Source of the DNA: an uncultured Alphaproteobacteria bacterium
GTDB taxonomy: Bacteria > Pseudomonadota > Alphaproteobacteria > UBA6615
Direction of reading: 5' to 3'
Assembly (NCBI GenBank): GCA_943787745.1
Contig: CALSNJ010000001.1
Coordinates: forward strand, 1 to 64,000
DNA: 64,000 nucleotides
Under the pieces are notes generated by a model. It made no database searches. It saw only the letters and a list, made by a program, of their open reading frames with translations, and was not told the DNA's origin. Below, piece after piece: positions 18,023 through 56,306 of this stretch (within the stretch, counting starts at the first letter, position 1; every line of letters begins with the position of its first letter). The translations under genes and the position numbers were made by a program.

Positions 18023-18097
18023 GCGGGAATAGCTCAGTGGTAGAGCATCACGTTGCCAACGTGAGGGTCGCGAGTTCGAATCTCGTTTCCCGCTCCA
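18023..18097 (+). tRNA. tRNA-Gly (anticodon GCC)
   Basis: The complete cloverleaf can be read. Acceptor GCGGGAA pairs with TTCCCGC; the D arm is GCTC...GAGC; the anticodon stem TCACG/CGTGA encloses TTGCCAA, giving anticodon GCC at 18055-18057; the T arm holds GTTCGAAT. A discriminator T and encoded CCA end it. A terminator follows at 18105-18132. Confidence 0.97.
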
Positions 18098-18157: not shown

Positions 18158-18682
18158 TCAGGCGGCGATCTTCTCCAGAATATTCTGCGGTGAAGACATG
18201 CCGTAGGGGTCGGCCTCGCAATTGTCTTCAAAGCCGGGCTCCTCGAACCACTGCTCGACAACGCCATCATTGATGACGGCGGCATAGCGCCAGGAGCGCA
18301 TGCCGAAACCCAGATTGTCCTTGGCCACCAGCATGCCCATCTTGCGGGTGAATTCGCCCGAGCCATCGGGAATGACTTCGACGTTCTTGAGGCCCTGCTG
18401 ACGGCCCCAGGCGTTCATGACAAAAGCGTCGTTTACGGAGATGCAGTAAATTGCATCGATACCGTTCTGCTGAAATTCGCCATGCATTTTTTCAAAATCG
18501 GGAAGCTGATAGGTCGAGCAGGTGGGCGTAAATGCGCCCGGTAGCGAAAACAGGATCACACGTTTCCCGGCGAACAGGTCGTTGGTTTTTACCATCTCCC
18601 AGCGATAGGGGTTGTCGCCGCCGATGGAATCATCGCGTACGCGGGTCTTCAGGGTCACGTTGGGGGTTTTCTTGCCGATCAT
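18158..18682 (-). CDS. Peroxiredoxin, Prx5/redoxin type
   Basis: This 174-residue thiol peroxidase reduces hydrogen peroxide and organic peroxides. The peroxidatic Cys is residue 55 in LPGAFTPTCSTYQLP, the signature of the Prx5 branch. The CISVNDAFVMNAWG and CEADPYGMSSPQNIL stretches are also typical of alphaproteobacterial forms. The promoter side carries two palindromes of iron-regulator (Irr) type at 18718-18736 and 18767-18781, shared with the divergent dienelactone hydrolase. Confidence 0.93.
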   Translation of the reverse strand: MIGKKTPNVTLKTRVRDDSIGGDNPYRWEMVKTNDLFAGKRVILFSLPGAFTPTCSTYQLPDFEKMHGEFQQNGIDAIYCISVNDAFVMNAWGRQQGLKNVEVIPDGSGEFTRKMGMLVAKDNLGFGMRSWRYAAVINDGVVEQWFEEPGFEDNCEADPYGMSSPQNILEKIAA

Positions 18683-18717
18683 CGTGTTGCTCCGTGGGCG
18701 GTGTGTGCCCGGTTGTT

Positions 18718-18736
18718 TATTAGAATAATTCTAATA
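18718..18736. promoter_or_regulatory. Irr/ICE-like 19-bp palindrome
   Basis: TATTAGAATAATTCTAATA is a perfect palindrome around a central A. Its core TTAGAA-N3-TTCTAA matches the iron-control element recognised by the alphaproteobacterial haem-sensing repressor Irr. It lies 36 bases before the peroxiredoxin ATG, so bound protein would block that promoter. The regulator is inferred from the motif only. Confidence 0.6.
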
Positions 18737-18766
18737 TAGGGCGCCCGGATCAATTTCAAGTGCTTT

Positions 18767-18781
18767 TTGGAATTATTCCAA
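18767..18781. promoter_or_regulatory. Second Irr/ICE-like palindrome
   Basis: TTGGAATTATTCCAA is a perfect 15-bp palindrome with the same half-site spacing as the site at 18718-18736 (TTGGAA-N3-TTCCAA). It lies between that site and the dienelactone hydrolase start. It may be a weaker site for the same factor. Confidence 0.5.
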
Positions 18782-18871
18782 TATGTAGGTGAGGCACTAC
18801 GGTTTTTGGGATTTTGGTGGCAAGATTGATGAGAATGAATGGCTCTGTCCGGGCCAGACGGAGAAAATGAT

Positions 18872-19639
18872 ATGCGCGAAGAAACACTGAAAGTAACCAC
18901 ACCGGATGGTGAAATGAGCACCTTCCTTGTCCAGCCGGAATCCGGGGGACCTTTCGCACCAGTCGTCCTTTTCATGGATGTCTGGGGTATTCGTGAACAG
19001 CTGTTTGACCTCGCCCGTCATATCGCCACCGTCGGGTATGCCGTTGCGGTGCCAAATATGTACTACCGCATGGGCGATATGCATTTTGACTATCGTCGTC
19101 CCGATGGAAGTACAGCCTCGCTCAAGGATTTGCCGGAAGCCGATCAGCAGCGCATTCAGGAATTTCGGCTTCACCTGTCTGATGAGATGGCCGTCGCTGA
19201 TGCGGGCGCGCTGATGGCGCGTCTTGCGGAGGAAGAAACGCTTCGCAGTGATGTTGCGGGCTCTATTGGCTACTGCATGGGCGGGCGCCATGTGCTGCGT
19301 GTTGCGGCAGCTTATCCGGGTCTGTTCCGCGCGAATGCCAGCCTGCATCCGACCCGCCTGGTGGTCGAAGGTTCAGATTCACCCCACCGGGACGCCGGCA
19401 ACATCCGAGGAGAATTTTATGCGGGGTTCGGCGCGGAGGATCACTACACGCCGCGCGATGTCATTGCGGGGGTGCGTGCGGCCTTCAACGGCCAACCCGC
19501 GATCTATTCCGACACGGTGCATGCGGGTGTCGCCCACGGATATGCCATTCCGGACCGGGACGTTTATAACAAGCATGCAGCCATGCGCGACTGGGAAATC
19601 ATCTTCGCGATGTATGACAGAGTCCTGCGCGGGCGTTGA
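18872..19639 (+). CDS. Dienelactone hydrolase-family protein
   Basis: This is a 255-residue alpha/beta hydrolase. The nucleophile elbow is GYCMGG with Cys135, the residue that distinguishes dienelactone hydrolases from serine hydrolases. A late VAHGYAIPDR stretch contributes the His. The ATG at 18872 is chosen because GGAG sits 8 bases before it; an ATG at 18839 is the alternative. Family members open dienelactones in chloroaromatic breakdown, but many copies have unknown substrates. Confidence 0.9.
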   Translation: MREETLKVTTPDGEMSTFLVQPESGGPFAPVVLFMDVWGIREQLFDLARHIATVGYAVAVPNMYYRMGDMHFDYRRPDGSTASLKDLPEADQQRIQEFRLHLSDEMAVADAGALMARLAEEETLRSDVAGSIGYCMGGRHVLRVAAAYPGLFRANASLHPTRLVVEGSDSPHRDAGNIRGEFYAGFGAEDHYTPRDVIAGVRAAFNGQPAIYSDTVHAGVAHGYAIPDRDVYNKHAAMRDWEIIFAMYDRVLRGR

Positions 19640-19648
19640 TAGCGCTGT

Positions 19649-20185
19649 CTATTTCTGGACGGCAATCTTGTCCTGCATGGGTTTGCCCATGAAGTCGATC
19701 TTGCCGATCTGAACACCCTCCGCACGCAGCAGGTCGTAAGCCGTCGTGATGTGAAAGAAAACCTGCGGGTTGGCGAAATGCACCAGATGTTCAAGTGCAC
19801 CGTATGTCAGATCTGCCAGACGCGTCTTGACCAGAACGTCACGATTGGGGTCGCCGTCAAATTGATCGGCGTGCAAGCTTCCAAGAAATGAAAGTGTTCC
19901 CGCGATCCTTGCCTGTGCACTCGCGATATCGGTGTCCGGCTCCATATCGACCTCAGGTGCATCAACACCGGCCAGACGGGCTGCAGCATTGGCCGCATGG
20001 ACGCAGGCCTGACGAATTTGTTCTGCAAGAGAGAGCATGTCGGGCGCGAACCGTCGTTGCATCAATTCGGTTTCATCAAGGCCGGCTCCGCTGGCAAATT
20101 CTGCGGCACGACCAAGGATCGTATCCAGGCTGGTGAGCATTTGCTGATAGGTGGGAACGGAAATGGCGTACATGGAAATGGACAT
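19649..20185 (-). CDS. DUF1993-domain protein
   Basis: This 178-residue, mostly helical protein matches DUF1993, a DinB-like four-helix-bundle family of unknown function. Typical stretches are SVPTYQQMLTSLDTIL at the start and the HFANPQVFFHITTAYDLLR helix near the end. The start is supported by AGGAAA seven bases before the ATG. It converges on the dienelactone hydrolase gene and lies 24 bases after the bicupin gene. Confidence 0.88.
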   Translation of the reverse strand: MSISMYAISVPTYQQMLTSLDTILGRAAEFASGAGLDETELMQRRFAPDMLSLAEQIRQACVHAANAAARLAGVDAPEVDMEPDTDIASAQARIAGTLSFLGSLHADQFDGDPNRDVLVKTRLADLTYGALEHLVHFANPQVFFHITTAYDLLRAEGVQIGKIDFMGKPMQDKIAVQK

Positions 20186-55512: not shown

Positions 55513-56306
55513 ACCTTCGGCTTTCGTGCGACGGCGAGCAGCATATGCGCGACCAGTCCGGAGGGAATGACAGGCGCGATTGCCGCGCTCATGGCCTTGG
55601 ATAGGAACCACTGATAGGGCATGCCGAACTCGTGCTGAAGCGAGCGCAGGACGCCCTGGCGTTTGCCGATTGCCTTGATATCGAGAACCTCAAAACCGCT
55701 CAGCGCGACCAGATCCCGAAACTCTCCGCGGGTCAGGCGCCACTGATAGAAGCGCGCGCCATCTTTGTCTGGGAGGGCTGATTTGCGCCAGTCACTTGCC
55801 GCACGCAGGGCGTGGCGCAAATTGTCGAAAGGTACAGAGGTAAACAACAACCCGCCGGGTTTCAGAACTCGGTAAGCTTCATCAATACAGGGCGAAAGGC
55901 CGGCTTCGAAATGTTCGAATGTGCCCCACGAGAAGTAGGCATCGAAGGACTCATCAGGCAATCCGGTTGCGCGAATGTCGCCGATCTGGAAATCATGCTC
56001 GGGAAACCTTGTGTTCAGCGCCCCGACGGTTTTTCGGCTGATATCCAGGCCCAGCGTGGGCCACCCCTGTTCCGAAAAATGAATGGTCCAGTCGCCCAGT
56101 CCGCAGCCCCCGTCGAGCATACGCGCGCCGCGAGGCAGGTCCTTGAGATAAGGGGCCATCACCTTGTATTCGTCTTTTCGCGGAATGTTCGCCACCGTGT
56201 CGGATGGTCCACCCATTTCATCCCACTTGGCCGTCCAATAGCGCTCGACGAAATCTGTTTCGTCGTCTTCGATATGGCCGTCGTCAGTCAAATAATCTTT
56301 GCGCAT
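55509..56306 (-). CDS. SAM-dependent methyltransferase
   Basis: This 265-residue protein has motif I MLDGGCGLGDWTIHFSEQ near residue 60 and the later FDAYFSWGTFEHFEAG and VLKPGGLLFTSVPF stretches. It is an independent methyltransferase from the one overlapping it downstream, with different motif I residues. It lies 10 bases after the GT4 gene at 56316. Confidence 0.9.
   Translation of the reverse strand: MRKDYLTDDGHIEDDETDFVERYWTAKWDEMGGPSDTVANIPRKDEYKVMAPYLKDLPRGARMLDGGCGLGDWTIHFSEQGWPTLGLDISRKTVGALNTRFPEHDFQIGDIRATGLPDESFDAYFSWGTFEHFEAGLSPCIDEAYRVLKPGGLLFTSVPFDNLRHALRAASDWRKSALPDKDGARFYQWRLTRGEFRDLVALSGFEVLDIKAIGKRQGVLRSLQHEFGMPYQWFLSKAMSAAIAPVIPSGLVAHMLLAVARKPKV

Follow-up and report, generated by a model that had tools for sequence, protein, structure and literature searches.

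Predicted Irr boxes assign a Prx5-type peroxiredoxin gene to a peroxide-defence gene set conserved across an alphaproteobacterial order

The two palindromes that lie between a gene for a Prx5-type peroxiredoxin (prx) and a divergent gene for a dienelactone-hydrolase-family protein (dlh) are, as predicted from sequence, very probably binding sites for Irr, the iron- and haem-responsive repressor. By carrying them, prx joins a small peroxide-defence set (catalases, Dps and rubrerythrin) that bears the same site across the whole order, a solid but incremental result, with new targets for a known regulator. We consider it likely that both palindromes are Irr operators and that Irr represses prx within a peroxide-defence regulon. 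Descriptions of Irr have mostly centred on rhizobial haem and iron genes; the site counts given below suggest that its best-conserved sites in other alphaproteobacteria lie at peroxide-removing genes and at the rubrerythrin gene beside irr.

The palindromes and their flanking genes

Within the window, i.e., the whole stretch of 64,000 nucleotides that was analysed, the locus comprises the following features.

18158-18682, minus strand: prx, 174-residue Prx5-type Redoxin/AhpC-TSA peroxiredoxin (Pfam Redoxin, 6e-27)
18720-18734: box 1, TTAGAA-TAA-TTCTAA = TTAGAATAATTCTAA, proposed Irr operator of prx
18720-18757, minus strand: possible prx promoter, TTGAAA-17-TATTAG, its -10 running into box 1 (by eye only)
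18767-18781: box 2, TTGGAA-TTA-TTCCAA = TTGGAATTATTCCAA, second proposed Irr operator
18872-19639, plus strand: dlh, dienelactone-hydrolase-family protein of 255 residues, divergent from prx (Pfam DLH, 1.4e-29)

The initial annotation had reported two equally spaced palindromes here and had matched the first to the Irr element. Both are present, its coordinates 18718-18736 being those of the perfect 19-bp palindrome TATTAGAAT-A-ATTCTAATA that contains box 1, and both match the Irr box, or ICE (palindrome TTAGAA-N3-TTCTAA). The two boxes fit TTRGAATWATTCYAA, with TT-GAA invariant in the half-sites, and because they have a TWA middle in common, a 7-1-7 arrangement (TTRGAAT-W-ATTCYAA) describes them better than a 6-3-6 one; Fur-family operators are built on the 7-1-7 plan. 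The pattern TTNGAANNNTTCNAA has three matches in the window compared with 0.10 ± 0.33 expected from the shuffled window. The third match, at 55905, falls within a coding frame, and boxes 1 and 2 are the only sites of the window that agree at 13 or more of the 14 specified positions. Box 1 ends 37 bp before the prx ATG, and box 2 is located 84 bp upstream of the start codon of prx and 90 bp upstream of that of dlh. A distance of 47 bp, or some four and a half turns of the helix, separates the box centres. This would set the boxes on roughly opposite faces of the DNA, a geometry that speaks for two independent operators more than for a single cooperative site.

The earlier identification of the flanking genes as encoding a peroxiredoxin and a dienelactone hydrolase is confirmed by the Pfam matches. 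The prx product combines the Redoxin domain with the PGAFTPTC motif of Prx5-type peroxiredoxins (PGAFTPTCS, containing Cys55) and has a second cysteine, Cys80. Its nearest solved structure is that of Haemophilus HI0572 (1nm3, E 5.7e-45), with which it shares the peroxiredoxin domain and the PGAFTPTCS motif; unlike HI0572, it has no fused glutaredoxin domain in its 174 residues. The dlh product has the DLH domain and a GYCMGG sequence that corresponds to the Cys nucleophile motif. Fold family and GxC nucleophile motif are thus common to dlh and the dienelactone hydrolases 1din and 3f67, but the relationship is distant (E 2.6e-12 with 3f67, a putative dienelactone hydrolase), and dlh is found outside any aromatic ring-cleavage operon. 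Its start at 18872 is preferred for the better ribosome site, judged by eye, an in-frame ATG at 18839 being a possible alternative.

As for the promoter of prx, a TAYA or AATA sequence immediately precedes the box in most prx orthologues. An automatic scan returned no sigma-70 promoter above threshold at the prx/dlh locus, and the placement given above is therefore one that we infer.

A tRNA-Gly (GCC) gene occupies positions 18023-18097 of the window, between a ybaK-like gene and prx. On the other side, a DUF1993 gene (19649-20185) adjoins dlh; in genome G023 it adjoins prx and a cupin gene, so that a small gene neighbourhood is partly conserved, in a different order. The pairing of prx with dlh was considered as a general module and rejected, as outside this genus it was seen only in G023, where the two genes are convergent; none of the named loci has it except the record that duplicates G005.

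Conservation of the box in the genome and the order

In its own genome, TTNGAANNNTTCNAA matches eight sites, versus two for the reversed control pattern. Five copies are intergenic: two between prx and dlh, and one each before katG (L007), in the irr-rubrerythrin spacer (L009) and before dps (L011). The other three, which fall within coding frames or at gene ends, appear to be fortuitous. A wider scan (17-mer, two mismatches) gave 14 sites against 28 for the control, which means that degenerate matches carry no information.

The initial annotation had proposed a search for the motif at iron genes, naming bfr, hemA and suf. This expectation holds for dps (iron storage) and for the rubrerythrin gene beside irr, and the box before dps means that the motif does occur near a known iron gene, the absence of which had been named as a reason to abandon the Irr reading. 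It does not hold for bfr, where no box is present in this genome (best score 10/14), nor for hem and suf genes, for which a pattern scan of the genome found no copy with up to two mismatches, hemA and suf not being located individually. Since Irr targets vary between species, a box at bfr, hemA or suf is not a strict requirement. Rather than a general iron and haem gene set, the sites mark peroxide-defence genes (katG, dps, the rubrerythrin gene rbr and prx, with katA in relatives).

The same gene set emerges from the 24 genomes of the order, in which TTRGAAYNRTTCYAA has 25 strict sites versus four for the reversed control. As many as 23 of them lie at rbr (7), prx (6, among them boxes 1 and 2), dps (6), katG (3) or katA (1); the remaining two are found at an allophanate-hydrolase-like gene (G010) and in a mobA/cupin region (G015). 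The rough binomial chance of 23 out of 25 sites at this set is about 1e-76, taking six target genes with 200 bp for each in 3 Mb. Scoring was possible for 12 dps genes, and in 11 of them a box with at least 11 of 14 positions lies within 3-39 bp of the start; the irr-rbr spacer carries a box in several genera of the order. The box before prx is likewise conserved in relatives: in all four other close orthologues (G003, G005, G006 and G023; 76-87% identical), a 14/14 box is found 41-62 bp upstream of the ATG, within spacers whose remaining sequence is very dissimilar. On the other hand, no counterpart of box 2 precedes dlh in G003, G005 or G023. Box 2 was seen in this genome only, and it is here that the dienelactone hydrolase gene may be under Irr control.

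Irr and the other candidate regulators

Three Fur-family proteins are encoded in the 3.27-Mb genome: a Fur/Mur-like protein (L001), Irr (L002) and a Zur-like protein (L003), the last adjoining zinc-transporter-like genes. L002 belongs to the Fur family (PF01475), carries the HxH haem motif (HHH in NIEDHHHFF) and has no CxxC zinc site and no Cys at all; its gene has fabA and a rubrerythrin gene as neighbours. It scores 210 bits with NCBIfam NF045678 IrrA (cut-off 150) and 194 bits with the NCBIfam Irr model (cut-off 170), so that the genome does possess the Irr homologue on which the initial annotation had made its proposal depend. An N-terminal Cys-Pro haem regulatory motif of the Bradyrhizobium Irr type is absent from the N terminus of L002; it is also missing in Rhodobacter sphaeroides Irr (PMC3413700) and hence does not define the Irr family. 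The recognition helix reads ATVYN in Irr, ATVYR in Fur and QVYR in Zur, the PerR/Irr-type Asn being found only in Irr among the three. As irr is present in nearly every genome of the order, its co-occurrence with the box is uninformative, and presence or absence cannot prove the match.

A sizeable minority probability goes to the same Irr-family protein working as a PerR-like, metal-loaded peroxide sensor that is freed from DNA by H2O2 oxidation. The PerR box is TTATAATNATTATAA, from which the present box differs by one base per half, having a G/C instead of a T/A pair at base 4, and it is not a PerR box in the strict sense. Common to the system described here and to the PerR regulon of Bacillus and its relatives are the 7-1-7 plan, the TTA outer bases, the recognition-helix Asn and targets such as catalase, Dps and peroxidases, the gene set (catalases, Dps, rubrerythrin, Prx) being typical of PerR. 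The recognition-helix Asn and the regulatory Asp of PerR are shared by PerR and Irr (PMC8638967); the shared Asn fits the description of our box as a PerR box with G at base 4, and is a possible reason for the likeness of Irr and PerR boxes. Furthermore, PerRB and PerRA are the NCBIfam models that rank next after Irr for L002, though both far below their cut-offs, and DNA binding by R. sphaeroides Irr is favoured by Mn (PMC3413700). The sole OxyR-like protein of the genome, a LysR protein (L270:1480-2412; G000:C7:103556-104458) that is 37-38% identical to Escherichia coli OxyR, has a His aligned to the peroxidatic Cys199 of the latter and keeps the equivalent of Cys208, which makes a peroxide input through Irr a more attractive possibility. 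However, all Irr proteins studied respond to haem or iron (PMC7762939), and L002 exceeds the Irr cut-offs by a wide margin, retains HxH as its haem motif and has no CxxC zinc site such as that found in Bacillus PerR. A broader proposal, which we put forward tentatively, is that Irr might be the main, PerR-like peroxide-response regulator of the order, replacing an OxyR whose only relative has no Cys199, with the Prx5-type prx, and possibly dlh, having been recruited to it.

That the boxes are read by Fur/Mur (L001) and not by Irr is improbable. Fur boxes, too, follow the 7-1-7 plan and contain the GAAYNRTTC core, and a Fur-like site with that core exists in the genome, but this site is a distinct perfect palindrome, TTGAGAACCATTCTCAA, at L020:1501-1517 (G000:C2:224048-224064), which precedes the gene for an iron ABC-transporter-like binding protein by about 29 bp, the kind of location expected for a Fur site. 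The recognition helix of Fur has Arg, and the box is adjoined by irr, not by fur, in many genera; Fur/Mur was disfavoured as regulator on the helix Arg and the separate site. The TTGAGAACCATTCTCAA site also lies a few kb from bfr.

Little probability likewise falls to an unrelated oxidative-stress regulator (LysR, MarR, Rrf2 or other) reading the palindrome. Palindromes of such a length are recognized by regulators of many families, and the OxyR-like LysR protein exists; on the other hand, no regulator of these kinds was found adjoining the boxes, what they match is the Irr/PerR half-site with its invariant TT-GAA, and the box recurs beside irr. OxyR itself was set aside because its relative has no Cys199, and to our knowledge the box does not resemble an OxyR site. 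Finally, functionless chance palindromes can be dismissed on the shuffles and the conservation: although short palindromes are generally common in AT-rich spacers and two-mismatch copies are no commoner than in the control, 0.1 match is expected per window, the box is kept before prx orthologues in diverged spacers, and nearly all strict sites fall at a single functional gene set.

Proposed repression by Irr and comparison with known systems

With Irr as the preferred regulator, a dimer would bind TTRGAAY-N-RTTCYAA. Occupying box 1, it would repress prx by covering the DNA immediately before the prx start, with the -10 element and the start point probably included; the box is near the prx start and, by eye, over the -10, from where a bound Fur-family dimer should repress. 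Box 2 would probably exert the same repression on the divergent dlh promoter, and since katG, dps and the rubrerythrin gene are preceded by the same operators, the whole would form a compact Irr-controlled regulon against peroxide and iron damage. Repression would be lifted either by haem, signalling iron sufficiency, at the HxH site or by peroxide inactivating Irr, and catalase, Dps, rubrerythrin and Prx would be switched on together. Such a model has a single Fur-family repressor tie haem and iron status to the supply of catalase, Dps, rubrerythrin and thiol peroxidase. A thiol peroxidase does not need iron, and iron or haem would admittedly be an odd signal for it.

Several properties of characterized Irr proteins are relevant to this model. 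Known Irr proteins are bound to DNA without haem, and haem leads to their release or degradation (PMC7762939); in Bradyrhizobium, the haem-dependent degradation is promoted by reactive oxygen species (PMC3413700). The R. sphaeroides protein binds to Irr boxes at mbfA and ccpA, both of them oxidative-stress genes; the 5' end of mbfA maps within the Irr box, and an irr mutant of this species shows peroxide resistance (PMC3413700). The system described here shares with the Irr box/ICE system of alphaproteobacteria the sequence, the location close to gene starts, the presence of irr in the genome and targets in peroxide defence or iron storage, such as mbfA and ccpA in R. sphaeroides (PMC3413700). 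The targets themselves differ, being prx, katG, dps and a stand-alone rubrerythrin gene here. Two boxes in one divergent spacer, a bfr gene without a box and no box seen at hem or suf also set it apart from the known ICE system.

Distribution across the class

In a survey of 142 genomes of the class, TTAGAAYNRTTCTAA matched 43 loci outside the order. Rubrerythrin genes account for 14 of these (13 beside irr), katG for six, dps for four, and katA, a cytochrome c peroxidase gene and an AhpC/TSA peroxiredoxin gene for one each; five loci concern Fe-S assembly or Rrf2 (one sufB assignment among them being by eye only) and 11 are of other kinds. This tally indicates that the emphasis of Irr boxes on peroxide and iron is general, in agreement with the R. 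sphaeroides targets and mutant phenotype described above (PMC3413700).

The link to prx is more restricted. In a set of 80 named prx loci, a box occurs only in Kiloniellales-like, Rhodospirillales-like and a few other metagenome-assembled genomes, five loci having the strict box (including the record equal to G005) and some more a box with one mismatch. It is absent at about 60 loci of Rhizobiales, which bear irr, and the prx box is thus lineage-specific and its link to prx not universal. In a genome of another family (G055), an Irr box at L282:1501-1515 stands 34 bp upstream of an AhpC/TSA-type peroxiredoxin gene other than prx, so that an independent link to a peroxiredoxin may exist.

Three further arrangements were encountered in the survey. 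Two Irr boxes, 32 bp apart from start to start, are found in the irr-rubrerythrin spacer of a genome from another alphaproteobacterial family (L301:1501-1547, G090). At L305:1501-1515, an Irr-like gene is directly followed by an Irr box and then by katG, where rubrerythrin is usual. Lastly, at L297:1501-1515 in a small (1.1 Mb) genome, an Irr-type box directly precedes a Fur-family gene, which may point to autoregulation.
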